DNA from: Collinsella sp. AK_207A
GTDB lineage: Bacteria; Actinomycetota; Coriobacteriia; Coriobacteriales; Coriobacteriaceae
Direction: 5' to 3'
DNA: 64,000 nucleotides
NCBI RefSeq assembly: GCF_902501965.1
Contig: NZ_CABWID010000014.1
Coordinates: 62,001 to 126,000 of the forward strand
Position numbers and translations under genes: made by a program. The notes below the pieces were generated by a model. The model had not been told where the DNA came from. It did no database searches and worked only from the letters and a program-made list of their open reading frames with translations. Positions 27,308 to 44,897 of this stretch are shown piece after piece. Position 1 is the first letter of the stretch. Every line of letters starts with the position of its first letter.

Positions 27308-27313
27308 CGCGTG

Positions 27314-29455
27314 ATGGAACCAAATAATCGAATGAAGCAATCAAATACAAATAAATCACTTTACGATTACATCCCGGTTGTAGTCGTGTGTCTTGTTTTC
27401 CTGATCGTCGGCATCCTGTTTGTTCAGAACGAGATATTTCAGGATGACTGGTATATCGAGGCGAGTGCCGATGGGTTTTTTGGTAACAGCAACCGAAGCC
27501 TTTTTGTTGTAGGTCCAAATTATCTCATTACTGGACTGATTTGGGTTCTATCGCTCACGGGCATTAGGCTCTTCTGGCTTCATATCCTGCTTGTTCTATT
27601 CAACTTTCTTTCACATCTTCTCATCAGTTGCGTCATGGTGCGGAGAGTCGGTTCACGTGGCGCGACCCTATCATCCGTCTGCATTGGGTTGCTGTTTGCG
27701 CCTATCGTGAGCTTCGAGCTGCAATTTACTACCACTGCTGCCTACGTAATCACCTCGGGTTGTTTTGCGCTTCTTGATGCGGTCGAGCGCGATGCTCACT
27801 TGAAATGGAAGTTGCTTGCCATTGCATGGATTGTCATCGGATCCTCGCTTAGATTTGATTGTCTTGTTTACTCCGTGCTACTGTTCGGCTTGCTATGGCT
27901 ATTGAACTCGATTGATGTCATTCGCCATTGCGACGTTGGTGACAGGATTATCTTCACTCTAAGAAGACTGGCACCTTTTGCCGCTACCTTATTTGTCTGC
28001 GTTTGTCTTGAACTGAGTCATAATGCGTTACTTAATTGGCAAAATCCAGGATTCAGTAGCTGGAATGCTGTTCGTGCCAGCGTTGATGACTATGCACTGC
28101 CCTCGTACGACGAAGCTGCTCAGGAGTACGAGCAAATTGGACTTTCCAAGGTTGATGTCAACCTTCTCAAGTCATGGAACAATATCGATGAGATCACATT
28201 TTCTGAAGAGACGTACAACAAGCTAAAAGATATTAAATTGCACTGGAAAGGCCAGGGAGAAGGCAAAGATGTCTCCCTTCTTACAGTCGTTTCCTTTTCG
28301 CTCTTTTCTTCCGCTAAGAGCTTTATTGGAACCACATGGTTTTGGGAAGCAGCTTTGTTTCTTATCTTGATCGTGTTCCTATCTGATCGAAAAGCCATTC
28401 TTTCCGCCGGTCTCGTTTTTCTAGGCTCGTTCGCACTGTATGCGTATCTGCTAGCAATCGGTAGGTTGATTTGGCGAACGGAGTGGCCAATCTGGATAGC
28501 GCTTATCTTTGCGCTTCTGTTTGTTTTCTCGAATAATCGTGTTCGCTCAATTCGACTACTCGATTCTGTCTCCAAGACGCAGCGTACACTACTCGTAGTT
28601 GCTCTGTTTTGCTTGGCGTTCTTTGGACGTTCTTACAATGCTGATTCCGCACTGTTTACGCGATATAAAGATAGGATAAATAATCCAAATACGTATGGTC
28701 GATACATCATTTCGCTTGTAACTGGAAAAACTATAAACTATGTGACGTATAGTAGCAGCGCTGCTGTTGATCTGAGCGAAGACGATAACCATTTTTATTT
28801 TTCACTGTGGTCTAATGATTGGCTGCAGCAGTATCCTCTGTATGCAGTTGACACCTTCCGCTTTTTTCCTATTGGTTCCGGTAAGAACTGGGGGACGCTC
28901 GGGCAGTATCAGATTCGCTTGAAGCCTATTCGGAGTAATTTCTCTAACTGGAAGATAGACAATCCCTTCGAAGCCTTAACAAATGAAAAAGTTCGAGTAG
29001 CTGCTAGGCCATCTGAAGCACTCGCTAGAAACGATGAGCTTTTGGCTTATTTGAACGAGAGATACTCAGCGACTACAACATATTCTGTAGACCGGATGGT
29101 TGCAAACGATACTTTGATTACTCGCTATTGCGATGTTAAAAAAATTCCCGAAGCGGATAATACGGATATAGCCGTTAGCTTTACAAGTATGGTATCTGAT
29201 GAGCTGTCTGACTTTCTTGAAATCGATGCTCGTTTTCCAGATAGCCAGTCCGGCCTTCACTATCGGCAAGCCTTCCTTGTCTTAACCAACGAGTCGGGTG
29301 TTACAAAAGCGTTTAGTTGTGAAAGATCATCAATTCGGACGACTATTCCTAAAACGCAGATTGGTAACGGCAACTATATTGCTTCATTGGTTTTTGAAAC
29401 GGATGAGGGAAATTGGCTTTCGTCCGCTTCAGCTGAATTAAGGGTATCGGAATAG
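27314..29455 (+). CDS. Polytopic membrane protein, GtrC-like glycan transferase candidate
   Basis: About 713 residues with roughly 11 hydrophobic helices in the first 450 (VVVVCLVFLIVGILFV; FWLHILLVLFNFLSHLLIS; ALFLILIVFLSDRKA and others), followed by a soluble C-terminal region of about 260 residues. This shape, and the acidic FQDDWY loop after the first helix, are like GT-C-fold sugar transferases that use lipid-linked donors outside the cell, such as GtrC-type O-antigen glucosyltransferases. The GC content is clearly lower than in neighbours, suggesting later acquisition. Start taken at ATG 27314; a GTG three bases earlier is an alternative. A family assignment is not possible from sequence alone. 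Confidence 0.6.
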   Translation: MEPNNRMKQSNTNKSLYDYIPVVVVCLVFLIVGILFVQNEIFQDDWYIEASADGFFGNSNRSLFVVGPNYLITGLIWVLSLTGIRLFWLHILLVLFNFLSHLLISCVMVRRVGSRGATLSSVCIGLLFAPIVSFELQFTTTAAYVITSGCFALLDAVERDAHLKWKLLAIAWIVIGSSLRFDCLVYSVLLFGLLWLLNSIDVIRHCDVGDRIIFTLRRLAPFAATLFVCVCLELSHNALLNWQNPGFSSWNAVRASVDDYALPSYDEAAQEYEQIGLSKVDVNLLKSWNNIDEITFSEETYNKLKDIKLHWKGQGEGKDVSLLTVVSFSLFSSAKSFIGTTWFWEAALFLILIVFLSDRKAILSAGLVFLGSFALYAYLLAIGRLIWRTEWPIWIALIFALLFVFSNNRVRSIRLLDSVSKTQRTLLVVALFCLAFFGRSYNADSALFTRYKDRINNPNTYGRYIISLVTGKTINYVTYSSSAAVDLSEDDNHFYFSLWSNDWLQQYPLYAVDTFRFFPIGSGKNWGTLGQYQIRLKPIRSNFSNWKIDNPFEALTNEKVRVAARPSEALARNDELLAYLNERYSATTTYSVDRMVANDTLITRYCDVKKIPEADNTDIAVSFTSMVSDELSDFLEIDARFPDSQSGLHYRQAFLVLTNESGVTKAFSCERSSIRTTIPKTQIGNGNYIASLVFETDEGNWLSSASAELRVSE

Positions 29456-30815: not shown

Positions 30816-32783
30816 ATGTATAGTTTCAGACGTAGTATTCGCGATAGCGCAGCATTGTCTTTTTCCGCGTTGAATGTGCGGCACCTAACTGTCGCTCTTT
30901 CTGCTTCGCTCGTTAGCTTTCTAGCAACTGTTATTCTTCTTTCTTCTTTTTTCGCCACTAATGACGATAGCTATATACAAATGGCATTGGCTGGATCTCT
31001 TTCCGGTGATTATTCCGCTTTTGTCACCTTCGTTGGTTTTTCTCTTACATGGTCCGTTTCACGACTTTTCGCATGCATTCCGGGGGTGCCCTGGTGGGGC
31101 ATCATGCATTATGTTTCCCTTTTTGCGAGTGTAGTGTTTTTTAACCTCTCTCTTCTGTCTTTATCTTTTTCTAGGCGCTTTCGAGAAAGAGGAGTTTTTT
31201 CTTTCTTCGTACTTTCATTGACTGATTTCTGTCTTTTTTCTTTTTTTGTTTCGCGGGTTCAATTTACTGAAACTGGGTCTGTTGCTGCGGCTGTTGGCTC
31301 GATGCTTTTTGCTGCTAATATCTTCCGACATAAACGGGGCAATAGGCTTGACAATGAGATGAAAACCCGGTTGGTTCCTTGGGCGTTTTCCGTTCCATTC
31401 TTTTTGCTGGCTTTTTGCTATCGCATGGAATGCGGTTTGCTTGCTTTGACGTTTTGCGGGCTTGCAGTGTTCATAAAGGTTGTTGTCGACAAGGTTGAGC
31501 ATGTCTCTTTTGATTATCGAATAGCCTTGCACTTCCTTATCGCATGCATGGTTTGCTCGATCGCGTTCGGTATCCACGTCGGTGCGTATTCATCTCCGGA
31601 GTGGAAGAGCGTCAAGACCACCATTAAGGCTTTTGCCGGATGTACCGACTATCCCCATGCAACATATGAAGATAATCCTTCCCTGTATGATTCGGTTGGT
31701 TGGGATGAATCGCTGGTAAAGCTTGTTCCCATGTTTTTCTATATGGACAAGCGCGAGACCCCTGAGGCACTTGAACATGTCGCCAACTCTGATTCAACGT
31801 ATTTGTGGGAGCTTAGGGCCAATCCTCTGGGAACGTTGAAGACCAGGCTTTCCGATCTCGCAAATCCGGTCGTTATTCCCTTCGTTGGATTGTGCGTCCT
31901 ACTTTTCATCATTGCCAACACCCACGCCGAACGCTCCGTGCGGTTCACGGCTCGCGCGGTCTTTATCGTTGCCCTTGCCTTTTTAGCCTATCTAGTCGTT
32001 CGCGGGCGCATGCCGTATCGAGCTGCTCTTTCTGTGATTCTTCCTGCTATGGGAGTCTTAGCTGGTTCTTTGATGGGAAGTGGTCACGGTTTCAGGTTTC
32101 TTGAGAGTAGAGGACGTTTTTTTGATATTGCTTTTGACGCTGTGGCGCTCCTGATGCTCGCTGTTCTCTTCTTTGCTTCCACGCGTCTCGGCAAAGTGCT
32201 CGTTCTTTTCATGGTTCTGGGCTTGGGCCTCATTTCCGTTGTCCGATTCATTCGTCTTGACGCTCGGACGGCGTGTCATCGCGTTTGCAGCGCTATGAGT
32301 ATGTGGCTGGTCCCAGCATCCCTCGTTGTCTTCATTGGCGCCGCTGGATGCGTTACGGTTTATAAATGTGGACCGTGGAGTGAGGACTATCACGAACTCA
32401 CCATTACCGAGCAGAATGGCGATGCAATCTACTCCTATGCAGAGAATAATCCTGACCTGCTGGTTATCTTTGATTCTGCTATTGGTAGGTATGGTGCGGT
32501 TCCTCGCGATGTATGGAGCCTGCGATGGCCGGTCAACCAGACGAACTGGGGAAGTCTCTTTTACCAATACCCCTGGTTCGATTCCACGCTCAAATCCGCA
32601 GGGTTCAAGGGCACGCCTACGACTGAAGACCTGTTTGACGACAACGTGCGCCTGGTCATCGGATCCGATTACGTCTATGAGCTTATGAGACAATATTTAA
32701 CCAACCTGTACGGCGACGTTCAGATGACGTGCGTGGATGTCATCGGCAACGGCCTGAGGGTATACCGATTCAGCAAGGACTAG
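30816..32783 (+). CDS. Polytopic membrane protein, second GtrC-like candidate
   Basis: About 655 residues. Roughly ten to twelve hydrophobic segments (LTVALSASLVSFLATVILLSS; LLALTFCGLAVFIKVVV; FIGLCVLLF and so on) fill the first 510 residues, with an FFATNDDSY loop after helix one that recalls the acidic first loop of GT-C transferases, and a C-terminal soluble domain of about 130 residues. It resembles the protein at 27314 in architecture but not in sequence. It is AT-richer than its surroundings and has no Shine-Dalgarno, and 187 bp without any gene separate it from wecE, so it may depend on its own signal or be a recent insertion. Function is inferred from context only. Confidence 0.55.
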   Translation: MYSFRRSIRDSAALSFSALNVRHLTVALSASLVSFLATVILLSSFFATNDDSYIQMALAGSLSGDYSAFVTFVGFSLTWSVSRLFACIPGVPWWGIMHYVSLFASVVFFNLSLLSLSFSRRFRERGVFSFFVLSLTDFCLFSFFVSRVQFTETGSVAAAVGSMLFAANIFRHKRGNRLDNEMKTRLVPWAFSVPFFLLAFCYRMECGLLALTFCGLAVFIKVVVDKVEHVSFDYRIALHFLIACMVCSIAFGIHVGAYSSPEWKSVKTTIKAFAGCTDYPHATYEDNPSLYDSVGWDESLVKLVPMFFYMDKRETPEALEHVANSDSTYLWELRANPLGTLKTRLSDLANPVVIPFVGLCVLLFIIANTHAERSVRFTARAVFIVALAFLAYLVVRGRMPYRAALSVILPAMGVLAGSLMGSGHGFRFLESRGRFFDIAFDAVALLMLAVLFFASTRLGKVLVLFMVLGLGLISVVRFIRLDARTACHRVCSAMSMWLVPASLVVFIGAAGCVTVYKCGPWSEDYHELTITEQNGDAIYSYAENNPDLLVIFDSAIGRYGAVPRDVWSLRWPVNQTNWGSLFYQYPWFDSTLKSAGFKGTPTTEDLFDDNVRLVIGSDYVYELMRQYLTNLYGDVQMTCVDVIGNGLRVYRFSKD

Positions 32784-32798
32784 CAGTTACGATTAGCC

Positions 32799-33572
32799 AT
32801 GATACGCGGGAATGAACATAAGATGAGCAGTCAGAACATACGGTTCGAACGAGCTGACGGGGATTCGCATGTCCAGGCATCTACGCCTCCCTGTTATGAA
32901 CGCGGCGAGTACCGAGCTCCCGCGCCGGATCCCAGCGTCCCGGCTCCCAAGCCGGGCGGCGTTCTCTACCTTGTCCTTAAACGCTTCTTTGATATCTGCA
33001 TCTCACTGGTGATCATGGTCCTCGGCATCATCCCTGGGTTCTTGCTGAGCATCCTTATCATGTTGGATTCTCCCGGTGCCTCTCTGTACCGGCAGGCGCG
33101 TATCGGCCTGGGTGGCGCGCCGATCAGGATTTGGAAGTTCCGCACCATGGCCGCGGACGCCCATGAGCACCCCGAGCGGTACATGACGCCCGAACAGCTT
33201 GCCCTCTGGCGCCGGGAGCAGAAGATCGATGACGACCCGCGCGTCACGAGGATTGGGCGCGTACTGCGCCGCTACTCCATCGACGAGTTTCCGCAGTTCC
33301 TGAACGTGCTCATGGGCGACCTTGCTATCATCGGCCCTCGTCCGGTCACGCAGGAGGAGACGCTGGAGCTCGGTGACGCGCGTGACGAGTTCCTCTCGGT
33401 CAAGCCCGGCATCACCGGATGGTGGCAGGTAACCGAGCGCAACGAGGCAACCTGGGCCAACGGGCACCGCCAGGCGCTCGAGCTCTTCTATGTGAGACAT
33501 GCCAGCGTGGCTCTCGATTTGCGCATCTTCGTTCGCACCTTTCGTGCCATTTTTTCCGGCACCGGTAAATAA
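32799..33572 (+). CDS. Initiating sugar-phosphate transferase (polyprenyl glycosylphosphotransferase)
   Basis: 257 residues. One long membrane helix (residues about 64-88, FDICISLVIMVLGIIPGFLLS) then the WbaP/WcaJ-type catalytic domain: WKFRTMAADA, VTRIGRVLRRYSIDEFPQ with the essential Asp-Glu pair (162-163), NVLMGDLAIIGPRP and KPGITGWWQV. It transfers a sugar phosphate, commonly galactose, glucose or an amino sugar 1-phosphate, from a nucleotide to undecaprenyl phosphate, opening repeat-unit synthesis. Start may be ATG 32799 or ATG 32823; neither has a strong ribosome binding site. The disordered first 55 residues favour the shorter one, but this is undecided. Confidence 0.92.
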   Translation: MIRGNEHKMSSQNIRFERADGDSHVQASTPPCYERGEYRAPAPDPSVPAPKPGGVLYLVLKRFFDICISLVIMVLGIIPGFLLSILIMLDSPGASLYRQARIGLGGAPIRIWKFRTMAADAHEHPERYMTPEQLALWRREQKIDDDPRVTRIGRVLRRYSIDEFPQFLNVLMGDLAIIGPRPVTQEETLELGDARDEFLSVKPGITGWWQVTERNEATWANGHRQALELFYVRHASVALDLRIFVRTFRAIFSGTGK

Positions 33573-33608: not shown

Positions 33609-34625
33609 ATGAAAAAAGGTCGAGGCACGCACGTCGTGCTCCTCTCAGGTGGGTCGGGTAGCCGGCTCTGGCCGCTCTCAAACGATGTCCGCTCCAAGCA
33701 GTTCCTCAAGGTGCTGCGCGACGATTCCGGTAATCACGTCTCCATGGTGCAGCGCACCTACGCCCAGCTCCGGCGGAACCTCCCCGGTGCGGATGTCACC
33801 GTGGCCACCTGTGCTTCGCAGGCAAGCATGCTCGCCGAGCAAATTGGTGGCGGCTTTGGGCTCGTGGTTGAGCCCGAGCGACGCGACACAGCGCCTGCGA
33901 TCCTGCTCGCTGCGGCACACCTCGCTTGGGAGCAGGGCGCGGATCAAGACGACGCCATGGTCGTCATGCCTATAGACTCCTTTGTTGAGGACGCCTACTA
34001 CGACCGTCTGGCCGACGTGGCCGATGCTGTGCGGGCTCGGGCGGCGGAAATCGTGCTCCTGGGCGTGGAGCCCACCTACCCGAGCGAGAAGTACGGCTAC
34101 ATCGTCCCCTCCGCCCCCTCGGGCTCGCCCCGGCAGGTGGAGAGCTTCCGCGAGAAGCCCGATGCTGAGACCGCGGCTTCGCTCATTGCCCGCGGAGCGC
34201 TTTGGAACTGTTGCGTGTTTGGCATGACGGTGGGGCACGCGCTCGAGGTCCTTGCCGGCTACGGGGAGTTCTCGGGCTTCCGCGACCTGCGCGAGCGTTA
34301 TGCCGAGCTCCCGCGGAACAGCTTTGACTACGAGGTGGTCGAGCGCGCCTCGTCCGTGGCGGTGGTGCCCTACGGAGGTGCCTGGAAGGACCTGGGTACC
34401 TGGAACACGCTTTGCGAGGAGATGGCCGACGACGTGGCTGGTCCCGTGGTAGTGGATGCCAGCTGCCGAAACGTCCACGTCATCGACGAGCTCGGAGTGC
34501 CCATCGTCATCTCCGGCATAGAGGACGCCGTGGTGGTGGCCACCGAGGACGGCATCCTCGTCTGCGCCAAGGAGCGCAGCGCCGGCATCAAGCCGCTGGT
34601 CGCGCGGGCTGAGGAGCTGGCGTGA
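33609..34625 (+). CDS. manC: Mannose-1-phosphate guanylyltransferase
   Basis: 338 residues. The nucleotidyltransferase signature VVLLSGGSGSRLWPLSND with the SKQFLKV follow-up, the EPERRDTAPAILLAA strand, MPIDSFV metal region, EKYGYIVP and FREKPDAET substrate loop are all present. It makes GDP-mannose from GTP and mannose-1-phosphate. At 338 residues it lacks the isomerase domain of long bifunctional ManC proteins. The mannose-1-phosphate could come from the phosphohexomutase at 41854. It ends overlapping the next glycosyltransferase start (ATGA-like TGATG), so this and the GT genes are translated together. Confidence 0.88.
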   Translation: MKKGRGTHVVLLSGGSGSRLWPLSNDVRSKQFLKVLRDDSGNHVSMVQRTYAQLRRNLPGADVTVATCASQASMLAEQIGGGFGLVVEPERRDTAPAILLAAAHLAWEQGADQDDAMVVMPIDSFVEDAYYDRLADVADAVRARAAEIVLLGVEPTYPSEKYGYIVPSAPSGSPRQVESFREKPDAETAASLIARGALWNCCVFGMTVGHALEVLAGYGEFSGFRDLRERYAELPRNSFDYEVVERASSVAVVPYGGAWKDLGTWNTLCEEMADDVAGPVVVDASCRNVHVIDELGVPIVISGIEDAVVVATEDGILVCAKERSAGIKPLVARAEELA

Positions 34626-35743
34626 TGGCGGGCGGTCCCAAGGTCGCGCTCGTTCACGACTGGCTCGTGGGCTCGGGTGGTGGCGAGCGCGTGCTGCGCT
34701 GCATGCACGAGATGTGGCCCGATGCTCCCATCTTCACGCTCGTGTACGACGAACGGAGCGCGCCCGCGTGGTGCCGTGGACTCGATATACGTACCACTTA
34801 CATCCAGCGGTGGCCCGGTGGCAGGACCCATCACAAGCTACTGCTTTCCTTTATGCCGCGCGCATGGGAGACGTTCGACCTCACCGATTACGACCTGGTG
34901 GTCAGCTCATGCATGAGCTGCTGCAAGGGTGTGCTCACCCGCCCGGACGCCCTGCACGTGTGCTACTGCCATAGCCCCATCCGTTACGTGTGGGACCTCT
35001 ACTACGACTACCTCGCCGGTGCGGGTGGCTTCAAGCGGCTCTTCATGCCGCCGCTCATCTACCGGGTTCGCCAGTGGGATTATCTTGCGGCGCAGCGCGT
35101 GGACCGTTTCGTGGCGAACTCTGCGTTCGTGGCGAAGAGGATCGCCAAGTTCTACCGGCGCGACGCCATGGTCATCCATCCCGGCGCGGCCGTTCCCGGC
35201 GAGTTGCCGGCGTCCACGGCCAAGGGCGATTACTACCTCGTGGTCTCGCGGTTCGTGGGCTACAAACGGATCGACCTCGCTGTGGAGGCGTGTAACCGGC
35301 TCGGGCGCCGGCTCGTAATCGCAGGTTCCGGTGGTGAGGAGGAAGCCAACCTGCGAGCGCTCGCGGGTCCCACGGTGGAGTTCCGCGGCCGCGTCTCCGA
35401 CGAGGAGCTGGACGAGCTCTACGCCGGTGCCCGCGCCTTTCTGTTCCCGGGCGTGGAGGACTACGGCCTTACCCCCGTGGAGGCCATGGGGCACGGCGTG
35501 CCGGTTCTCGCCTTCGGCCGCGGCGGCGCGCTTGAGACCGTGGTGGACGGGGAGACCGGCCTGTTTTTCTCCAAGCAGACGGCGGAGTCGCTCTGCGGCT
35601 GCATCGAGCGGTTTGAGCGTGACGGCGTGGCGCTCTCCGTCGAGGGTATCCACCGACACGCCCTGGGCCTCTCCGAGGAGTGCTTCAAGGAGCGCTTCGG
35701 CGCCTACGTGCGGCGCGCGATGGGGGAGGCGGGATTGATTTGA
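34625..35743 (+). CDS. GT4 glycosyltransferase, likely mannosyltransferase
   Basis: 372 residues, a GT-B enzyme. VALVHDWLVGSGGGERVL opens it; CYCHSPIRYVWDLYYDYL is a hallmark of WbaZ/MtfB-type mannosyltransferases; the second domain has YYLVVSRFVGYKRIDLAVEA and the donor site FLFPGVEDYGLTPVEAMGHG with the E-x7-E spacing. Next to manC it likely transfers mannose from GDP-mannose to the growing lipid-linked chain in the cytoplasm. ATG at 34625 overlaps the manC stop by one base; a GTG three bases earlier is possible. The following GT starts inside its stop codon. Confidence 0.85.
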   Translation: MAGGPKVALVHDWLVGSGGGERVLRCMHEMWPDAPIFTLVYDERSAPAWCRGLDIRTTYIQRWPGGRTHHKLLLSFMPRAWETFDLTDYDLVVSSCMSCCKGVLTRPDALHVCYCHSPIRYVWDLYYDYLAGAGGFKRLFMPPLIYRVRQWDYLAAQRVDRFVANSAFVAKRIAKFYRRDAMVIHPGAAVPGELPASTAKGDYYLVVSRFVGYKRIDLAVEACNRLGRRLVIAGSGGEEEANLRALAGPTVEFRGRVSDEELDELYAGARAFLFPGVEDYGLTPVEAMGHGVPVLAFGRGGALETVVDGETGLFFSKQTAESLCGCIERFERDGVALSVEGIHRHALGLSEECFKERFGAYVRRAMGEAGLI

Positions 35744-36834
35744 CAGTTACAGCGCCCCGCAAGATCATCATCAACGGCCTGTTCCTGTCCCGCCGCTTGA
35801 CGGGTATGGAGCGCACGGCACGGGAGCTCGTTCGCGAGATGGACGCCCTTGTCGATGACTGCTACACGCCCCTTGAGCTTGCGGTTCCCTGGGATGCCGT
35901 GGACGATCTTCATCTCCGGAACATCTCGATTCGGGTCGTCGGCTCGCGTACGGGCACGGCCTGGGAGCAAACCTCCCTGGCACGCTACGTCCTTCGCGAG
36001 CGTGGGTGGTGCCTGAGTATCTGCTCCACGGCGCCCCTGTTCTGCAAGGGGGGTGTCTTCATCCACGACATTGCGTACCTGCAGCATCCCGAGTGGTTCA
36101 CCTCGCTTTACTCGCGCCTTTCTGCGGCCTGGCATCGGGTGAACTACGCCTACGCTGCCAGGAGGGCGGACGTGCTCTACACGGTTTCCGAGTGGTCCAA
36201 GGAGCAAATCTGCGCTTGCCTTGGCGTCGATTCCCAGAAGGTGGTCGTCGTTCCCAACGGTTGGCAGCACATTCTGCATGTTAAAGAGGATGAAGGTGCG
36301 GCGCGCCTTCATCCCGAGCTGCTTGAGCGACCCTTCTTCTTCACGTTATGCAGTTTGGCCCCTAACAAGAACCTGCCATGGGTGGTCGGGGCGGCGAAGC
36401 GCAACCCCGATACGCTCTTCGTCGTGGCGGGCAATCTGAACAAGGTCGCCTACGGCGAGCGCTTCAAGGATGAGCTTCCTGGGAACATGCTGCTTCTGGG
36501 CTATGTTTCCGATGGCGAGAGCCGCTGGCTCATGGGTCATTGCCGCGCTTTCCTCTTCCCCTCGCTCTATGAAGGGTTCGGGATTCCACCGCTCGAGGCC
36601 TTGTCCTGCGGCGCCGCGGTTGTCGTCTCCCATGCGACGGCGTTGCCCGAGGTCCTTGGTGACGCCGTTCACTACGTGGACCCCGAGGCTGCGATCCCCG
36701 ATCTTGATGAGATCCTGGCGGAACCCGTCGGGGACGCCGGAGCCGTCCTTTCCCGATACAGTTATTCCAAAGCCGCCGAGGTCGTTTGCCGGTCCCTGGA
36801 GGACCGCGGCCTCCTGCGGCGAAAGGTGGTGTGA
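35740..36834 (+). CDS. GT4 glycosyltransferase (second)
   Basis: 364 residues beginning at TTG 35740, which overlaps the previous stop (TTGA) and follows GGGGGAGGCGGG. GT-B fold: IIINGLFLSRRLTGMERTARELV, then VFIHDIAYLQHPEWF, TVSEWSKEQICACLG, VVVVPNGWQHI, and the donor-binding FLFPSLYEGFGIPPLEALSCG with the conserved glutamates. It is related in length and motifs to the gene just downstream, so the two probably arose by duplication and add consecutive sugars. The sugar is unknown; GDP-mannose is possible given the manC neighbour. The rare TTG start may lower its translation. Confidence 0.82.
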   Translation: MTVTAPRKIIINGLFLSRRLTGMERTARELVREMDALVDDCYTPLELAVPWDAVDDLHLRNISIRVVGSRTGTAWEQTSLARYVLRERGWCLSICSTAPLFCKGGVFIHDIAYLQHPEWFTSLYSRLSAAWHRVNYAYAARRADVLYTVSEWSKEQICACLGVDSQKVVVVPNGWQHILHVKEDEGAARLHPELLERPFFFTLCSLAPNKNLPWVVGAAKRNPDTLFVVAGNLNKVAYGERFKDELPGNMLLLGYVSDGESRWLMGHCRAFLFPSLYEGFGIPPLEALSCGAAVVVSHATALPEVLGDAVHYVDPEAAIPDLDEILAEPVGDAGAVLSRYSYSKAAEVVCRSLEDRGLLRRKVV

Positions 36835-36837
36835 CGC

Positions 36838-37884
36838 GTGCCACGCCTTCTCATCGATGGTCTCTTTCTCACCAAGGAAGTGAACGGGATACCGCGCTAT
36901 GTGCGCGAGCTGCTTCGCTGTCTGGACGATACGCCGCGCTCGTTCGACGTGGAGGTGCTCGTTCCGGGTGGGGGAGAGGTGAACGACTTTCCACGGTACC
37001 GCACGATGAGCGTATCCCGTGTGGGGCGCCATACGGGGCAGCGCTGGGAGCAGTTTGAGCTTCCATGTTTCATGCGCTCGCGCGAGGGCGTGGGGCTCTA
37101 TCCCTGCAACACCGCACCGGTGCTCAGCCCCGGCATCACCATCATCCATGACATATCGCCCGTGGTGAACCCTAGCTTCTATTCTCCTGTCAACGCTCGT
37201 TACCATGGGGCGCTCTTCGCCCTGACGATTCCCCGAGCGCGCCTCATCCTCACGGTGAGCGAGTTCTCAAAGCGGGAGATCGAGCGCGTGTACCCCGCCG
37301 CGCGCGGCAAGGTCGAGGTGGTTCCCTGCGCCTGGCAGCACATGGAGCGTGTGGGTGCCGATCCCGATATCCTGGGCAAGCTGGGTCTCGTGCCCGGTGG
37401 GTACTTTTTCGCGCTGTCCACGTTGTCCCCCAACAAGAACCTGCGCTGGATCGCGGAGACGGCGCGCCTGAACCGGGGTTACACCTTCGTCATTGCGGGC
37501 GGCATGGATCCCCGCGTGTTCGGCGAGCACGGTATTCCCCGGGCGGACAACGTGATCTATCCCGGCTTTGTCTCCGATAGCGAGGCCAAGGCCCTTATGG
37601 CATCCTGTCGCGGATTCCTGTTCCCAACGTTCTACGAGGGTTTTGGCATTCCGCCGCTCGAGGCGCTCTCGTGCGGGGCACCCGTGGCAGTCTCCGACAC
37701 TGAGGTCATGCATGAGGTTTACGGTTCCTCGGCGCACTACCTCGACCCCCATGTCCCCTGCGAAGACGTAGAGGTGCTCTTCAGCACTCCCGTTGACGAG
37801 CCGGGGGATGTGCTCAAGCGCTTTGGCTGGGATATCTCCGCACTTAGGTTTTCTGATGCGGTCGGGAGGTGTCTTGCATGTTAG
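36838..37884 (+). CDS. GT4 glycosyltransferase (third)
   Basis: 348 residues from GTG 36838, three bases after the previous stop. It is a paralogue of the gene before it: LLIDGLFLTKEVNGIPRYVRELL, IIHDISPVVNPSF, LTVSEFSKREIERVYP, VEVVPCAWQHM, LSTLSPNKNL and FLFPTFYEGFGIPPLEALSCG line up in the same order. The Y-E-G-F-G donor site with both glutamates marks it as an active retaining enzyme. It should add one sugar on the cytoplasmic side. It overlaps the polymerase-fusion gene by 7 bp. Confidence 0.82.
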   Translation: MPRLLIDGLFLTKEVNGIPRYVRELLRCLDDTPRSFDVEVLVPGGGEVNDFPRYRTMSVSRVGRHTGQRWEQFELPCFMRSREGVGLYPCNTAPVLSPGITIIHDISPVVNPSFYSPVNARYHGALFALTIPRARLILTVSEFSKREIERVYPAARGKVEVVPCAWQHMERVGADPDILGKLGLVPGGYFFALSTLSPNKNLRWIAETARLNRGYTFVIAGGMDPRVFGEHGIPRADNVIYPGFVSDSEAKALMASCRGFLFPTFYEGFGIPPLEALSCGAPVAVSDTEVMHEVYGSSAHYLDPHVPCEDVEVLFSTPVDEPGDVLKRFGWDISALRFSDAVGRCLAC

Positions 37885-40373
37885 ATTCGTGGACGCTCTG
37901 CGCGGTTCTCGCGCTCGCGAGCGCGGTGCTGTTCGTCGCTTATCTGGCGACCACCTTCGTGCGATACGGGTACATCGTCTCGCCGTTCAACGTCACCATG
38001 TTCCTTGCCGCCGTCGCGTTCTGCCTGAGCCCGTTCTTCTATCTTGAGGACGGCACGTGGGCCTCGGTGTGGATTTACGACGCAGCGTCTATGCGCGCGT
38101 ACCTGGCGCAGTCACTGAATATCAACCTGCTGGGCACGGTGGTGTTCCTGGGCTTCCTGCTCTTCAAGACGGTGCGCGAGAGGAACAGCGGGGCCGAGCT
38201 GGGCCGTAATCGGGTGCTGAACGTCATGCCACGGGTCGACGCGCGGGTGGCGGGATTCGTCACGCTTGGTTCGATCGCTGTGTTCACCGCGATCTGCCTG
38301 ATATTTAACAGGGGAACCTTCCCGCTCCTCAACGGGGACCGTGATTTCTATTACCAGTCCTCGATCTCTCCCGTGTACCAGGCCATGCTCTTCGCCATGC
38401 AGTTTATGGGCGTGTACTATGGTTTTCGCTTCGTGTCGCAACGGCGCGGGCTCCTCGGTTTTCTGGCGGTGCTGTTCTTCCAACTCCTTTCCGGCACGCG
38501 CGGGGGGATGCTCCAGAACACGCTCGCTCCCGTGCTCGTATATGCGATCAGCTATCCCTACCAGGTGCTGCGCGCCGGCAGGCCGGTGGAGAGGCGCGGC
38601 CTGGTAAGGCGTTGGAGCACGCTGCTGATCGGCGTCGCTTGCGTGGGCGTCCTCGTGCTGGGGCTGGAGATCCAGACCGTGCGCTCGGGCGAGGGTCTCG
38701 GCGGCATCGCGCGCATGGCACAGGAGGTCGTTGACGGCAACACGTTCAGCGACATCCGCGATGGTGCGTTCCTCCTAAAGGGTTTCGCAGAGCGTACTGA
38801 TAGCTCGTTCGTCCACGGTCTCACGTACCTCGCGGGGCTTCTCGGATTCGTCCCCTCTTCGCTGAGCGCGTTCCGTCAGACCTGGTCATGGGGACGGTTT
38901 AGTGCCCATACGCTAGCCGGAATTCGCCAAACGCATTTTGGCCTGCGCGGCGGATGGTTCCTTGAGTCCTATTTCAACTTTGGGATTCTGGGAATCCTCG
39001 CGCTCGCCCTGGTGCTTGGGCTGCTCATGTTCAAGAGCGAGCAGATTTATCGCAGGTTCATCCTGGGCCGGGGAGGTCGGGGAGGGATCGTGCACCCGGC
39101 GGCGGACGCATCCCTGCTGCTCGTGCTCGTTCGCACCTTGTTCTCGGCGCTGACCTGCTCGTCGGGCACGATCGAGCTCTACGCCTGTCTGGCTACCATG
39201 TGTCTTCTCGTGGGCGGCTCCCATTGGGTACGGCACCTTCGTGCGTCGCGCGCCGAGCAGGTGGCGGGGACGGCCATGAGCATATGCCTCATGGGCGGGG
39301 ACGAGCCCGGGGTTCGCTGCGGGGTGACGGATTACAGCCGCCGGCTCGCGCAGGAGCTGCGCTTGGAGGGAACGCGGGTTCTTGAGGTGGTTCGCGGCGG
39401 ATCTGGCGGCGTGGGGTTCGATGCCGACGGGTGTCTGCGTCTTTCGGGGGGCTGGAAGAATCCCATCGCACTCGCGTTGACGCTGATTGGGGCCAAGCGC
39501 GCCGGATGCAACGTGGTGCATGTTGAATACCCGACCGTCGCCTACGGTCGGTCCCTGGGCATCAGCTTGGTTGGTTGGATGGTTCGCTTCCTCGGGCTCT
39601 CTTTCGTCTACACGGCTCACGAGTTTTCTAGCTACGGCCCACTCGGCCATGTGCGGCAGTTGCCCAGTCTGTATGCCGCAGATGCCGTTGTTGCCGTGGA
39701 TGAGCAGGAGCGCGACGCGATTCTGGAGTATTTGCCCGCCGGAGCCGAGGTGCATCTCATCCACATTGGCTCGAACATCTCCCGGTTCGCCGGCTCGGCG
39801 TCTGACGTGCAGCAGCTCAGGGCCTCACTGGCCGGACCAGGTACGACGGTGGCAGCGTTTTTTGGATTCGTGCTGCCGAGCAAGCATTTCCACGAGATTC
39901 TTCGCGCCATGGCGGAGCTCAAGGGGAGCGAGCGCTTGAGCACCAAGCTCCTGCTCGTGGGGGAGCTCGATCCGGCGAACGGGTACCAGGCCGAGGCGCT
40001 GAATCTCATCAAGGGACTTGGGCTCACGGACGACGTCATCACGACCGGCTACCTGCCCGCGGAGAACGTTGGCCTCTATCTTCGTGCGGCCGACTACGCG
40101 CTGCTTCCCACCGACCACGGTGCCTCTGTGCGCAACGGCAGCTTCTTAGCGGCCTATCAGGAGGGGATCGAGGTCGTCACTTCCGCCCCCAAGGGCGATT
40201 TCCCCTTCCATGATGTTCGGTTCCTCGATACGAACGATGTGGAGGGCATCAAGAAGGCGATCGTTGCGGAGCAGAAGCGCGAGATTCCGCGATACGACCG
40301 CGATGTTGACTTCGGCTGGAAGCGCGTAGCCCGTTCCCACGCCAATCTCTACCAGGAGGTGCTTGACCATTAG
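37878..40373 (+). CDS. O-antigen-type polymerase fused to a GT4 glycosyltransferase
   Basis: 831 residues from ATG 37878 with GGGAGG eight bases upstream. Residues about 1-455 carry 11-12 hydrophobic helices with the large, arginine-containing outer loop typical of Wzy repeat-unit polymerases (LLGFVPSSLSAFR, then FGLRGGWFLESYFNFG). After a short linker, residues about 470-831 are a soluble GT-B domain: CLMGGDEPGVRCGVTDYSRRL, VYTAHEFSSYGPLGHVRQL, AAFFGFVLPSKHFHEIL, then LLVGELDPANGYQ and RAADYALLPTDHGASVRNGS. Normally these are separate proteins on opposite sides of the membrane. Both frames are intact and no start signal stands at the junction, so this is a true fusion. The polymerase would join flipped repeats while the GT domain works in the cytoplasm. 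Confidence 0.82.
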   Translation: MLDSWTLCAVLALASAVLFVAYLATTFVRYGYIVSPFNVTMFLAAVAFCLSPFFYLEDGTWASVWIYDAASMRAYLAQSLNINLLGTVVFLGFLLFKTVRERNSGAELGRNRVLNVMPRVDARVAGFVTLGSIAVFTAICLIFNRGTFPLLNGDRDFYYQSSISPVYQAMLFAMQFMGVYYGFRFVSQRRGLLGFLAVLFFQLLSGTRGGMLQNTLAPVLVYAISYPYQVLRAGRPVERRGLVRRWSTLLIGVACVGVLVLGLEIQTVRSGEGLGGIARMAQEVVDGNTFSDIRDGAFLLKGFAERTDSSFVHGLTYLAGLLGFVPSSLSAFRQTWSWGRFSAHTLAGIRQTHFGLRGGWFLESYFNFGILGILALALVLGLLMFKSEQIYRRFILGRGGRGGIVHPAADASLLLVLVRTLFSALTCSSGTIELYACLATMCLLVGGSHWVRHLRASRAEQVAGTAMSICLMGGDEPGVRCGVTDYSRRLAQELRLEGTRVLEVVRGGSGGVGFDADGCLRLSGGWKNPIALALTLIGAKRAGCNVVHVEYPTVAYGRSLGISLVGWMVRFLGLSFVYTAHEFSSYGPLGHVRQLPSLYAADAVVAVDEQERDAILEYLPAGAEVHLIHIGSNISRFAGSASDVQQLRASLAGPGTTVAAFFGFVLPSKHFHEILRAMAELKGSERLSTKLLLVGELDPANGYQAEALNLIKGLGLTDDVITTGYLPAENVGLYLRAADYALLPTDHGASVRNGSFLAAYQEGIEVVTSAPKGDFPFHDVRFLDTNDVEGIKKAIVAEQKREIPRYDRDVDFGWKRVARSHANLYQEVLDH

Positions 40374-41787
40374 CGAGGTTTTGCAGGCTCGTAGAGGCGA
40401 CGTCATCTGGAACTACGTGGGCACGATCGTGTCCATGGGGAGCGGTTTCATCCTGCTGCCGATTCTCTTGGCATTCCTCTCTGCTGACGAGCTCGGTCTT
40501 TGGTACGCCTTTTTGGCGGTGAGCAACTTCACGTTGCTGTTTGAGTTTGGCTTCAGCCCCACGTTCGCGCGCAACATCGTCTACTGCCTGAGCGGCGTCT
40601 CCTCGCTCTCGCGCGAGGGGAAGACCGAGCGCGGCGATGAGATCGATTGGCATCTGTTCGCTTCTATCCTCAAGACATCCAAGCTTATCTATGCCGGCAT
40701 CGCGCTCGTGGCACTGCTTATCTCCGTCACGCTCGGCAGCGTCTACGTCGCCTCCATTACGAGCGACCTGGAGGGGCTCGACCATTGGCTTGCCTGGGGC
40801 GTCTTCTGCGTCTCCATCTTCCTCAACCTCTACTATCTCTGGACCATCACGTTCCTGCGCGGGTTCGGTGACGTGGCAGGGGAGAGCCGTGCCAAGACGT
40901 TCGCCAAGGTGTCCCAGCTGGTTGTGACTGCCCTGCTCTGCGTCATCGGGCTGGGGCTCATGGGGGCAGCGATTGGTTTTCTGCTCAATGGTATCCTGCT
41001 GAGGGCCTTCGCGAAGGTCGAACTCAGGCGTCATGAAAAGCTGCTCGAGTCCGCGCGGACGCTCGGCGGGAAGGTCTCGCGAGGGGATGTCAAATCTGTC
41101 TTGGACAGCGTTTCGCACCTTGCCGTCCGCGACGGGTTGGTTCAGCTGTCGCTCTACTTTGCTACCCAGGCTTCGTCCATCGTGTGCTCGCTCTACCTCG
41201 GGCTTGCGGAGACGGGAACGTACTCGCTCCAGCTGCAGCTCGCGAACGCAGTCGGGAGCGTCTGCATCGCCTACATATCGTCGTTCTATCCAAGTTATCA
41301 ATCTGCGTACACGCGGGACGATGTGGCGAAGATGCGCGAGATCGTCGAGCGTGGCTTCAGCGTCTTCTGGGCGTGCGCCATCGTTGGAATCGGAGGCGTG
41401 ATCCTCGTCGTGTATCCGCTGCTCCCCCTGGTGAAGCCCGGGGTATCGCTGGATGCGTGGATGTTCGTGGCGCTGGCGGTCTATACCTGCCTCCTCCAGC
41501 AGTATTCCGCGTTCTGCTCCCTAATCGTCGCCACGAACCGCATTCCCTACGTGCGGGCGTACGTCCTCGCGTCCGTTTGCGGCATCCTCTGCTCCATAGT
41601 GCTCATCAGGGTTTTTGGCCTGGGGGCATGGGGCCTGGTGCTCGGCCAGGCGATTGTCCAGCTCGCCTACAACGACTGGCATTGGCCCGGCCTGGTTATG
41701 AGCGAGTTGGGATTGGGTTATCTGAGTGCCCTCAGGGAGGGGTACCGCTGGCTGGGCGGTAGGCTTTCTCGCCGTCTCTCTCGGTAA
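40363..41787 (+). CDS. Wzx-type polysaccharide flippase (first)
   Basis: About 474 residues with 12-14 membrane helices of the MATE/polysaccharide-export superfamily: NYVGTIVSMGSGFILLPILL, FEFGFSPTFARNIVY, LVVTALLCVIGLGLMG, FVALAVYTCLLQQYS, with a charged middle loop of about 60 residues (LRRHEKLLESARTLGGKVS). It should move the lipid-linked repeat across the membrane. The start is TTG 40363 behind AGGAGG, but only three bases separate them; another TTG at 40381 is possible. It overlaps the polymerase fusion gene by 11 bp. Confidence 0.82.
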   Translation: MTISEVLQARRGDVIWNYVGTIVSMGSGFILLPILLAFLSADELGLWYAFLAVSNFTLLFEFGFSPTFARNIVYCLSGVSSLSREGKTERGDEIDWHLFASILKTSKLIYAGIALVALLISVTLGSVYVASITSDLEGLDHWLAWGVFCVSIFLNLYYLWTITFLRGFGDVAGESRAKTFAKVSQLVVTALLCVIGLGLMGAAIGFLLNGILLRAFAKVELRRHEKLLESARTLGGKVSRGDVKSVLDSVSHLAVRDGLVQLSLYFATQASSIVCSLYLGLAETGTYSLQLQLANAVGSVCIAYISSFYPSYQSAYTRDDVAKMREIVERGFSVFWACAIVGIGGVILVVYPLLPLVKPGVSLDAWMFVALAVYTCLLQQYSAFCSLIVATNRIPYVRAYVLASVCGILCSIVLIRVFGLGAWGLVLGQAIVQLAYNDWHWPGLVMSELGLGYLSALREGYRWLGGRLSRRLSR

Positions 41788-41853: not shown

Positions 41854-43563
41854 ATGGATGAACGCATCGTTTCCACCTACGATCGCTGGTTGCGCTTGGC
41901 CGAGGTGGCCGATTCTCGGGCGCTGGAAGGTCTCAAAGCCGAGCCGGGTGAGTTGGCGGACGCTTTCGCGCGTGATTTGAGCTTTGGTACCGGCGGACTG
42001 CGCGGTTTGATGGGACTTGGTCCCAATCGGCTGAACGTTTACACCGTTGGTCGGGCGACGCAGGGGCTCGCGAACTGGCTGCTCGCCGACTGTTCTGCGG
42101 TCGGCACGTCCGTTGCCATCGCGTACGACTCGCGCAATCATTCCGCGGAGTTCGCCCGCCGGGCTGCTTCGGTTCTCGCCGGCAACGGCATTCATGCTCT
42201 GGTTTTCCCGCATTTGGAGCCAACCCCCGTGCTCTCCTACGCGGTGCGTCGGCTTGGCTGTGCGGCTGGTATCGTGCTCACGGCTTCACACAATCCCAAG
42301 GAGTACAACGGCTACAAGGTATATGGGCCGGATGGTTGTCAGGCCACCACGGAGGCGTGCCGCTCCATTCAGGGTGCTATTCTCAAGGTGGACCCCTTCG
42401 ACGATGTGCGTGCCCTGCCCTTTGAAACCGCGCTGGATGCGGGCGCGGTGAGTTGGATCGATGACGAGCTACTGGATGGTTACGTGAACGCGACCGTGTC
42501 GTTTCGCGCTAGACAGGATTTGTCGAACCTTTCCGTGGTGTATACCCCGTTGAACGGAACCGGCGCCGAGCCGGTCGCACGCGTGCTGCGCGAAGCCGGC
42601 GTGACCGATTTTGCCGTCGTGCCCGAGCAGGCGGAGGCAAACGGGGACTTCCCCACGTGCCCCAAGCCGAACCCGGAGGAGCGCGCTGCGCTAGAGCTCG
42701 CCGTCGCCCTCGGCGAGAGGCGTGGGGCCGATCTGGTGCTCGCGACCGATCCCGATGCAGACCGTGTGGGCGTGGCCGTTCTCCACGAGGGCAGCTACGA
42801 GCTGTTGACCGGCAACGAGGTGGGATTGCTGCTGTTGGACTGGCTGGCGCGCCGGTCCCGCCGAAGCGGTTCTGTGGCTATGACGACCATCGTCTCGGCC
42901 CCCATGGCGGATGACCTGGCCCGGGCGCACGGAATCGAGCTCCGCCGGACGCTCACCGGCTTCAAGTTCATCGGCGAACAGATCGGCCTGCTGGAAGGGG
43001 AGGGCAGGGAGGACGACTTCCTCATGGGCTTTGAGGAGAGCTATGGTTACCTTGCTGGGACCCACGTTCGCGACAAGGATGCCATGATATCCTGTCTGCT
43101 CATCTGCGAACTGGCAGCTGAGGCCAAGGAGCGCGGATCCGATTTGTACGTCGATATGCGACGCCTCTACGATGACTATGGCCATTGGGGTAACGAGCAG
43201 GTCTCCATCCGGTATGCTGGAGCCGACGGACCGGAGCGGATGGCGGCGCTGATGGCCGGCCTGCGCACCCAGCCTCCCGCCTCGCTCGCAGGGCTCGGGG
43301 TCGAACGGATGATAGATTACCTGGCCGGCGCTGAGATGCCTGTGGTCAATCCAAGGCCTGACGAGGGGGTGCAGACCCTGCCGGCGTCGAACGTGCTCGA
43401 GTTCCGGCTCACGGGCGGAAGCCGTGTGCTCGTGCGACCGAGCGGGACCGAGCCCAAGGTCAAGGGCTACGTGTTCGCGAAGGCATCCACGCAGGACGCG
43501 GCCGAGCGGCTGCAGACCAGGCTCGTCTCCGACCTGAGAACGCTTTTGAACGGAAACGAGTGA
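41854..43563 (+). CDS. Phosphoglucomutase/phosphomannomutase
   Basis: 569 residues of the alpha-D-phosphohexomutase family, the long PGM2-like type. The active-site serine is Ser145 in TASHNPKEYNG, the metal loop DPDADRVGV lies near 300, the sugar-binding loop GFEESYGYLAG near 390 and the phosphate-binding RPSGTEPKVKGYVF near the end. It interconverts hexose-1- and 6-phosphates, supplying mannose-1-phosphate for ManC or glucose-1-phosphate. ACAGGAGC stands before ATG 41854. It may serve this locus or general metabolism. The second flippase gene overlaps its stop codon. Confidence 0.9.
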   Translation: MDERIVSTYDRWLRLAEVADSRALEGLKAEPGELADAFARDLSFGTGGLRGLMGLGPNRLNVYTVGRATQGLANWLLADCSAVGTSVAIAYDSRNHSAEFARRAASVLAGNGIHALVFPHLEPTPVLSYAVRRLGCAAGIVLTASHNPKEYNGYKVYGPDGCQATTEACRSIQGAILKVDPFDDVRALPFETALDAGAVSWIDDELLDGYVNATVSFRARQDLSNLSVVYTPLNGTGAEPVARVLREAGVTDFAVVPEQAEANGDFPTCPKPNPEERAALELAVALGERRGADLVLATDPDADRVGVAVLHEGSYELLTGNEVGLLLLDWLARRSRRSGSVAMTTIVSAPMADDLARAHGIELRRTLTGFKFIGEQIGLLEGEGREDDFLMGFEESYGYLAGTHVRDKDAMISCLLICELAAEAKERGSDLYVDMRRLYDDYGHWGNEQVSIRYAGADGPERMAALMAGLRTQPPASLAGLGVERMIDYLAGAEMPVVNPRPDEGVQTLPASNVLEFRLTGGSRVLVRPSGTEPKVKGYVFAKASTQDAAERLQTRLVSDLRTLLNGNE

Positions 43564-44897
43564 TGGCTGGAAAACTCAACCCGGATCGGAATCGGGCGGT
43601 GCCTGAATCAGAGGAATCGCGTCGGCGGCGCTCGGCGTATGTCTGGAACACCGTGGGCGGTCTGCTCATGGCATTCCAGTCCGTTATCATGCTCATGGTG
43701 CTCACCCGGGTGTGTGACATTGCCACGGCCGGCGTCTTTACGCTCGCGTACGCCAACGCGAACCTCTTCCTCAACTTGGGCAAGTACGGCGTTCGCAACT
43801 ACCAGGTCTCTGACGTTCGCGCCCGCTTCTCGTTCTCGGCCTATCTGCGCGCCCGCGCGGTCTCCACGTTCGCCATGCTCGTCGTGGGCGGGGCCTATAC
43901 CTTGGGGTGCGCTGTCTCGGTGGGATGGTCGACGGAGAAGACGGCGACGGTCGCGGTCATGCTGCTCTTCAAGGCGGTGGATGCGCTCGAGGACGTGTTC
44001 CACGGCAACTATCAGCAGCATGATCGTCTGGATGTGGCGTCCAAGGTCATCACGGCGCGCCTGGGCACGTTGATCGTCGTCTTTGCGGGGCTTATCATCG
44101 CCATGCGCTCGCTGCTCATGCCGCTTGCGATCACCACGGCGTTCACCGCGCTCTTCTTTGTGGGGGAGACACTCTGGGCCCGTCGTTTCGGCCTGCCGGT
44201 GGCGGACGGATCGACGGGGGAGGGCCTGCGTGCCGTGTGGCGCGAGACGGCCACGCTGCTGCGCGAGTGCTTCCCGGTCTTTCTTGCGGCGTTTCTGCTC
44301 TTCTACATCGGCAATGCTCCCAAGTACGCCATCGATGCCGCCATGGACGATGCCGCTCAGGCCTATTTCGGCTACATCGCCATGCCGGTCTTCGTGGTGG
44401 GGCTGCTCGCGAGCTTTGTCTACAACCCCATCATCGCCTCGCTCGCCGAGGATTGGGAAACGCGGCGCGCCGGTCGTTTTGCCCGGCGGCTCGGCGTGCA
44501 GGCGCTCATCATCGTGGGCATCACGCTCGTCTGCATCCTCGGCGCCCTGATCTGCGGCATCCCCGTGCTGGGGACGCTGTACAACGCGGACCTGTCTCCG
44601 TACCGGGTCGATCTTCTGATCCTGCTTGCCGGCGGTGGGTTTTTAGCGCTCGCCACCCTGCTCACCATGGGTATCACCATCATGCGCCGGCAGGGGCTGC
44701 TGGTTCCCGGTTACGTCGTGGTAGCTGTGTTCGCCGCCGTGCTCTCGCCCTGGGCGGTCGGCCTTGCCGGCGTGGACGGCGCCTCGTGGATCTACCTGGC
44801 GCTCATGGCGGTGCTCACCTTGTGGTTCACGGTCGTCTTCGCGCTTGGAGTCCGGCGGGGAGATAGCCTTCCCTTCGAGTCGCTTGATCCTCGATGA
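43563..44897 (+). CDS. Polysaccharide flippase (second)
   Basis: 444 residues, another 12-helix MATE/Wzx-like protein: NTVGGLLMAFQSVIMLMVLT, FAMLVVGGAYTLGCAV, RLGTLIVVFAGLIIAM, NAPKYAIDAAMDDAAQAYFGYIA (family signature region), and a C-terminal cluster of helices. Its sequence differs from the first flippase at 40363, so the locus has two. One may export the main repeat and the other a second lipid-linked glycan or a decorated form. ATG 43563 overlaps the mutase stop codon (TGATG). It is the last gene of the operon reading in this direction; no terminator is seen. Confidence 0.85.
   Translation: MAGKLNPDRNRAVPESEESRRRRSAYVWNTVGGLLMAFQSVIMLMVLTRVCDIATAGVFTLAYANANLFLNLGKYGVRNYQVSDVRARFSFSAYLRARAVSTFAMLVVGGAYTLGCAVSVGWSTEKTATVAVMLLFKAVDALEDVFHGNYQQHDRLDVASKVITARLGTLIVVFAGLIIAMRSLLMPLAITTAFTALFFVGETLWARRFGLPVADGSTGEGLRAVWRETATLLRECFPVFLAAFLLFYIGNAPKYAIDAAMDDAAQAYFGYIAMPVFVVGLLASFVYNPIIASLAEDWETRRAGRFARRLGVQALIIVGITLVCILGALICGIPVLGTLYNADLSPYRVDLLILLAGGGFLALATLLTMGITIMRRQGLLVPGYVVVAVFAAVLSPWAVGLAGVDGASWIYLALMAVLTLWFTVVFALGVRRGDSLPFESLDPR

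Follow-up and report, generated by a model that had tools for sequence, protein, structure and literature searches.

A Wzy-type polymerase and a GT4-like glycosyltransferase in a single reading frame of a Collinsella polysaccharide cluster

The fused gene and its surroundings

We analysed a stretch of 64,000 nucleotides from Collinsella sp. AK_207A (order Coriobacteriales; contig NZ_CABWID010000014.1, positions 62,001 to 126,000), referred to here as the window, in which one gene, wzy-GT4, encodes a Wzy-type polymerase followed by a glycosyltransferase (GT). The source genome is a draft assembly of 2.1 Mb in 24 contigs that is 99% complete. The gene lies at 37878..40373 on the plus strand as a single stop-free frame that ends in a stop codon at 40371-40373 and encodes 831 amino acids (aa) counted from ATG 37878. 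The Shine-Dalgarno-like (SD-like) energy, calculated for pairing with the 16S tail, was -14.1 kcal/mol before this ATG compared with -2.9 kcal/mol before an alternative start, GTG 37869. An earlier note on this DNA had claimed one uninterrupted frame for about 455 residues of polymerase and a complete GT domain. The frame was borne out, and the polymerase length came close, with the two nearest relatives ending at a position aligned with residue 460 and the GT running from Met467; the second domain proved to be GT4-like, and both halves are apparently complete. In the sequence as deposited, wzy-GT4 is a genuine polymerase-GT fusion and so far a singleton.

The GC content by codon position was uniform along the whole fusion frame, and third-position GC reached 0.82, 0.83 and 0.80 in three 60-codon segments covering 39048-39407 and spanning the junction. 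Because third-position GC stays high in this open reading frame (ORF) across the junction, there is no sign of a frame change. A frameshift as the default reading was accordingly discarded, with a small probability left for a one-base error beside the junction.

Residues 1-460 (37878..39257, plus strand) are, as judged by alignment, a complete Wzy-type polymerase with 11 predicted transmembrane helices and a large outer loop at about residues 266-365. This half matched the oligosaccharide repeat unit polymerase model TIGR04370 with an E value of 2e-7 and 30.4 bits, under the 40-bit cut-off; when the same test was applied to four homologues, two passed (L070 with 75.4 and L074 with 45.5 bits), one failed (L066, 25 bits) and one gave no match (L063). 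It is the only TIGR04370 match in the source genome, and a search of that genome with the Wzy_C model returned no match anywhere. The two closest homologues are standalone polymerases from two genomes of the same order, G424 (40% identity) and G258 (41% identity). In a 12-row alignment both stop at window residue 460, so that six residues separate this point from Met467, and the other homologues end near the same residue, three of them extending 4-11 residues past the aligned linker. The last hydrophobic helix and the basic tail, read in the ORF frame, align with these relatives. R269, R294, R333, H353 and R357 are invariant in the alignment and belong to the loop whose position outside the cell is predicted. 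The linker between the halves (39258..39275, plus strand) comprises residues 461-466 and contains the SD-like sequence AGGTGG at 39259-39264.

Residues 467-831 (39276..40370, plus strand) begin at Met467 and apparently constitute a complete GT4-like glycosyltransferase. The C-terminal half matched PF00534 (Glycos_transf_1) with 34.3 bits, above the cut-off of 26.4; models of the N-terminal domain stayed below theirs, PF13579 with 27.6 of 29.7 and PF13439 with 23.6 of 28.5 bits. The best match found for this half was WP_155625445.1, a whole standalone protein of 399 aa encoded on a plasmid of Burkholderia multivorans, which is 30% identical in the alignment and starts about 11 residues ahead of the point equivalent to Met467. 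This Burkholderia protein itself has four weak plasmid relatives, at about 25%, in Rhizobium and Neorhizobium. Among 396 genomes of the window's class, the GT half gave only weak matches to general GT4 proteins (L006, L007 and L009 were so classed by eye), and a two-row profile at E <= 1e-12 retrieved only the window itself from 246 class genomes.

An E-x7-E motif is expected in the C-terminal domain of GT4 enzymes. The GT half and WP_155625445.1 share the sequence G-x-S-x-R-x-G-S-F, and E-x7-E is non-canonical in both. GT4-like proteins with this variant (window 39276-40370; L075:1962-3158) thus occur in two phyla that are far apart, and each of them immediately follows a membrane-protein gene or domain. 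When GT4 rows were aligned with the whole fusion they fell on the polymerase half; the GT half was therefore modelled apart, on an alignment of GT4 rows. A Foldseek search with that model returned sucrose-phosphate synthase, BshA and MshA at E values of 3e-12 to 1e-9. This likeness of the modelled fold to GT-B enzymes is supportive only, since the input alignment was made up of GT4 proteins and the N-domain was poorly modelled.

The surrounding genes, all on the plus strand, are by their domain content a Wzx/Wzy-type capsule or exopolysaccharide cluster. They comprise an initiating sugar-phosphate transferase (Bac_transf, 32799..33572; PF02397, E 2.4e-55), a manC-like nucleotidyltransferase (33609..34625; PF00483) and three GT4 genes collinear with the G424 cluster: 34622..35743 (66% identity over 366 residues), 35680..36834 (42% over 350 residues, start uncertain) and 36838..37884, which shares 39% identity with its positional counterpart in G424 (251 residues aligned) and overlaps wzy by 7 bases. 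An O-unit flippase-like protein (wzx) follows at 40363..41787, with 351.5 bits against NF041503 (cut-off 300) and an 11-base overlap with the fusion. With the starts of the ORF list, the genes of 34622-41787 are tightly packed, with overlaps of 4, 64, 7 and 11 bases, so that loss of one stop could easily make a fusion.

Further polysaccharide-related features lie nearby. A 445-aa polytopic protein at 43560-44897 has no Pfam match and resembles a second flippase by eye, although NF041503 already matches 40363-41787. Two large membrane proteins at 27311-29455 and 30816-32783 (714 and 655 aa), also without a Pfam match, each show a hydrophobic stretch early in the sequence and, after it, an acidic pair (DDW / NDDS), which by eye recalls GT-C glycosyltransferases. 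The segment 22789-30628 holds an unusual sugar-modification block, in which genes for ATP-grasp, epimerase, GT2, HpcH/HpaI aldolase-like and HAD phosphatase proteins, one membrane protein and a dTDP-4-amino-4,6-dideoxyhexose transaminase (WecE type, > 600 bits) stand side by side.

Homologous loci and the search for other fused copies

The G424 cluster has the order manC, GT, GT, GT, wzy, GT, wzx, and that of G258 is alike by Pfam matches and ORF order. The order manC-GT-GT-GT-wzy is common to the window, G424 (the three GTs and wzy by sequence) and G258 (by Pfam and ORF order). Beyond wzy, the GT half of the window aligned with the post-wzy GT of G424 over a 91-residue segment only (24% identity, E 0.006), no significant similarity to the post-wzy GT of G258 was found, and the window flippase aligned with that of G424 over 142 residues (23%, E 8e-4). 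Judged by these alignments, the GT half is not the counterpart of the post-wzy GT in either genome, nor is the flippase that of G424. Because similarity to the G424 cluster stops just after wzy, the cluster switches origin at the fusion point.

The next same-strand ORF of at least 200 aa after wzy was a GT in 10 of 11 homologous loci. Ten post-wzy ORFs were scanned, of which eight were GT2 or GT4, one was polysialyltransferase-like (L068) and one was a methyltransferase (L074); the eleventh product (L072) is 96% identical to a scanned GT2. The post-wzy GT4 gene of L073, about 1.15 kb away, was counted among the ten. The fusion partner, going by gene order, fills the slot that usually holds a separate GT after wzy, and the fusion probably arose from a local cluster rearrangement. 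The junction itself looks young: an SD-like site and a Met stand at the start of the GT, and the similarity breaks just there.

A collection of species-level genomes was scanned with patterns from a three-row alignment, yielding 67 stretches that included 11 relatives of the polymerase, all of them standalone and the G424 and G258 proteins among them; the scan hinged on a pair of short peptide patterns and would miss homologues that are more distant or lack these motifs. With the starts that we chose, these 11 homologues measure 437-456 aa; counted from the earliest possible start codon they reach up to 500 aa. Single-sequence patterns applied to genome contigs gave 10 stretches with no relative among them. 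An order-wide profile search located the gene in 3 of 395 genomes (the window's, G258 and G424), fused only in the window's. No fused copy was found outside the window's own genome in 148 relatives, 396 class, 43 genus and 395 order genomes, sets that overlap and include that genome, and none was found among plasmids (searched for a near match and with the protein) or viral contigs. The earlier note had looked to a conserved fusion for support. This expectation failed, as all 11 other homologues are standalone and the genome sets searched contain no fused copy. The polymerase keeps 32 of the 33 columns that are invariant in the 11 standalone homologues. The catalytic motif of the GT is atypical.

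We also looked for long polymerase frames of other kinds. A TIGR04370 search of the class gave 66 matches in 63 of 396 genomes, 13 of them in frames of at least 600 aa including the window's. No GT1, GT2 or GT4 domain was found in the 12 other long frames (11 by Pfam, L051 by eye). One of these frames is a sugar transferase-Wzy fusion (L044, compared below), five are O-ag_pol_Wzy proteins without a GT domain (L020, L029, L031, L034 and L050), and L046 and L047 are Wzy_C proteins ending in a weak TPR-like tail. L045, L048, L049 and L051, taken up as candidate long polymerases, are not polymerases. A PF14296 scan of 178 genomes of the phylum, 9 of which had a match, showed no frame longer than 622 aa among the 11 matches listed, and the window protein was unmatched. 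Among the open-licence papers searched, the titles and abstract openings that were listed contained no report of a Wzy-GT fusion, and the literature search for the Collinsella capsule found no paper.

Topology, origin and competing explanations

Reporter fusions place both the N- and the C-terminus of P. aeruginosa Wzy-beta in the cytoplasm (PMC4815439). Modelled pneumococcal Wzy proteins fall into types, some with a C-terminus that is mostly outside and others with one that is typically inside (PMC12502699). Because the side of the C-terminus differs in this way between predicted Wzy types, it needed checking in the window protein. AlphaFold modelled the polymerase half with a predicted local distance difference test (pLDDT) score of at least 70 in 38 of its 46 ten-residue blocks, and by our reading the model has 11 membrane-length helices with the large loop at about residues 266-365. 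A hydrophobicity scan gave 8-11 segments per homologue and 10 for the window protein; both counts agree with the roughly 10-14 transmembrane helices expected of a Wzy polymerase. When loops were assigned from the 11-helix model, Lys and Arg were denser in the predicted inner than in the short outer loops of all 12 homologues (12/12), the large outer loop being left out; in the window protein they accounted for 20 of 98 residues in the inner loops, 4 of 57 in the outer loops and 9 of 100 in the large outer loop.

The model thus predicts that the C-terminus of the polymerase, and hence the GT, lies in the cytoplasm. Because of this predicted position, the GT would be on its normal side of the membrane and the expected compartments would be kept. 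The proposal that a fusion brings the GT to the polymerase site was upheld to the extent that it is topologically possible with a cytoplasmic C-terminus.

We consider it the best explanation, and a reasonably likely one, that wzy-GT4 is a natural fusion of a complete Wzy-type polymerase with a complete cytoplasmic GT4-like glycosyltransferase in a Wzx/Wzy-type capsule or exopolysaccharide cluster, and that it arose by cluster recombination and works as follows. Recombination would have joined a foreign segment carrying GT and wzx to the end of the resident wzy with no stop left between them, so that the GT landed in the slot where homologous loci usually have a separate GT gene. On the outer face, the 11-helix polymerase would use its large outer loop with the conserved Arg and His residues to join lipid-linked repeat units. 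The last polymerase helix would lead into the cytoplasm and hold the GT there; on the inner face, beside flippase and polymerase, the GT would extend the lipid-linked unit by one sugar. Both activities, the joining of repeat units outside the cell included, and the benefit of tethering are presumed from the nature of the two halves.

Several points weigh against this explanation. The fusion has been seen in one genome only, and the evidence comes from the sequence of a single assembly. The canonical E-x7-E is absent from the GT half, with G-A-S-x-R-x-G-S-F in its place, which makes activity less certain. The SD-like site and Met at the start of the GT fit an independent gene. The structure models are modest: the full-length model has a mean pLDDT of 64.3 with a poor GT half, and the GT half modelled alone has a mean of 59.3 with a poor N-domain. 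An automatic loop count from the hydrophobicity scan gave 16 versus 17 Lys plus Arg for the window protein and left the two membrane sides unseparated. The separation described above rests on loop borders that we set with the model in view and is support, not an independent test.

The strongest competing explanation, which we regard as a real though clearly lesser possibility, is that two genes, wzy and GT, have run together: the stop codon that separated them would have been lost recently or be polymorphic, the GT would be made mainly from ATG 39276, and the read-through fusion would be incidental, without a selected function. The GT half opens with ATG 39276, and AGGTGG ends 11 bases upstream of it with an SD-like energy of -8.7 kcal/mol. 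Across 17 cluster ORFs, only 2 of the 141 remaining internal in-frame ATGs come up to this value, against 6 of 16 gene starts; in a smaller set of 7 ORFs, 1 of 51 internal ATGs was as strong. The short linker, the lack of another fused homologue and the end of the G424 similarity at the junction point the same way. However, a G-rich stretch may give such an energy by chance, as it was reached by 14 of 441 internal ATG, GTG or TTG codons and by 4.1% of 6646 in-frame codons, and the spacing of 11 bases is longer than the usual norm. Moreover, without a stop codon each ribosome that finishes wzy makes the fusion.

These figures speak with moderate weight for an additional start inside the gene, or for the remnant start of a once separate GT gene, and some free GT may be made from this ATG. 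With a linker of about six residues and a GT that has its own Met, the halves are, on the face of the sequence, not deeply welded. The earlier note had named a start codon at the junction, yielding two proteins in other strains, as a finding that would speak against the fusion. ATG 39276 with its SD-like site is indeed present, but no stop codon comes before it; provided that the sequence is correct, ribosomes translating wzy will still produce the fused protein.

In our view it is improbable that an error of sequence or assembly is to blame and that the strain in reality carries two ordinary genes, with a stop codon or a one-base difference in length close to the junction. The data come from a single draft genome, and the 11 homologues are separate genes. 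In addition, the final 41 codons of the +1 frame are free of stops up to a TGA that overlaps the ATG (ATGA), like the 4-base overlaps at 34622 and 43560, so that a one-base length error would give a typical gene overlap. The codon-position GC stays consistent in the ORF frame through the junction, however, and the last helix and basic tail of that frame match those of the relatives. That joining inactivated one half and left a decaying relic in a silent cluster is very hard to credit: the atypical GT motif would suit it, but that motif also occurs in the standalone Burkholderia GT, the conserved polymerase residues are intact, the gene has no stops or frame breaks, and neither TIGR04370 nor Wzy_C reveals a second Wzy in the source genome.

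Whether natural fusion also means selected function is a further step. It is a speculative and rather unlikely reading that wzy-GT4 is a selected two-sided enzyme, in which a cytoplasmic GT completes the repeat unit beside flippase and polymerase, a physical link across the membrane ties this completion to chain extension, and the protein is a covalent version of the postulated GT-Wzx-Wzy complex; the functional coupling of the two halves would have to be assumed. Whether Wzx/Wzy pathways operate through a single complex of GTs, flippase and polymerase is so far largely a matter of postulate, and a natural fusion that locks one GT and the polymerase into a set stoichiometry and location would help to address it. 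It would also show on which side of the membrane the polymerase C-terminus lies, a feature that differs among predicted Wzy types (PMC12502699).

Comparison with known systems

The 11 TIGR04370-type Wzy homologues (L064-L074) resemble the polymerase half in being polytopic, in having a large loop with invariant Arg and His and in adjoining GT genes. The window protein differs in scoring below the family cut-off and in carrying an extra 365-residue GT. A Foldseek search with the full-length model gave no match at E <= 0.001. By VIA-align the best row for the polymerase half was the O-antigen ligase WaaL, an enzyme of GT-C type fold (7tpg_B; Z 7.2, 259 residues, root-mean-square deviation (rmsd) 5.2), and RodA (8tj3_B) gave Z 5.8 over 226 residues with an rmsd of 5.6, both Z values being under the tool's safe level for helical proteins. 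Rows 2-6 of the VIA-align list were left unused, as they fall on the poorly modelled GT half. Unlike the window protein, WaaL and RodA have no GT attached.

WP_155625445.1 of Burkholderia multivorans is like the GT half in its variant motif, in aligning over most of its length and in being encoded directly after a gene for a membrane protein (DUF6418), which is a putative polymerase. It differs in that it is a separate gene annotated as hypothetical, whereas the window GT is tethered to the polymerase. A further likeness is offered by a 729-aa frame of another genome of the same order, G395 (L044:1327-3516), which matches PF02397 (Bac_transf, E 6.5e-57) and PF04932 (Wzy_C, E 2.3e-17) and in which a polymerase or ligase is likewise joined to a repeat-unit assembly enzyme. 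There, the attached enzyme is the initiating phosphoglycosyl transferase (PF02397), placed at the N-terminus, and the polymerase belongs to the Wzy_C type.

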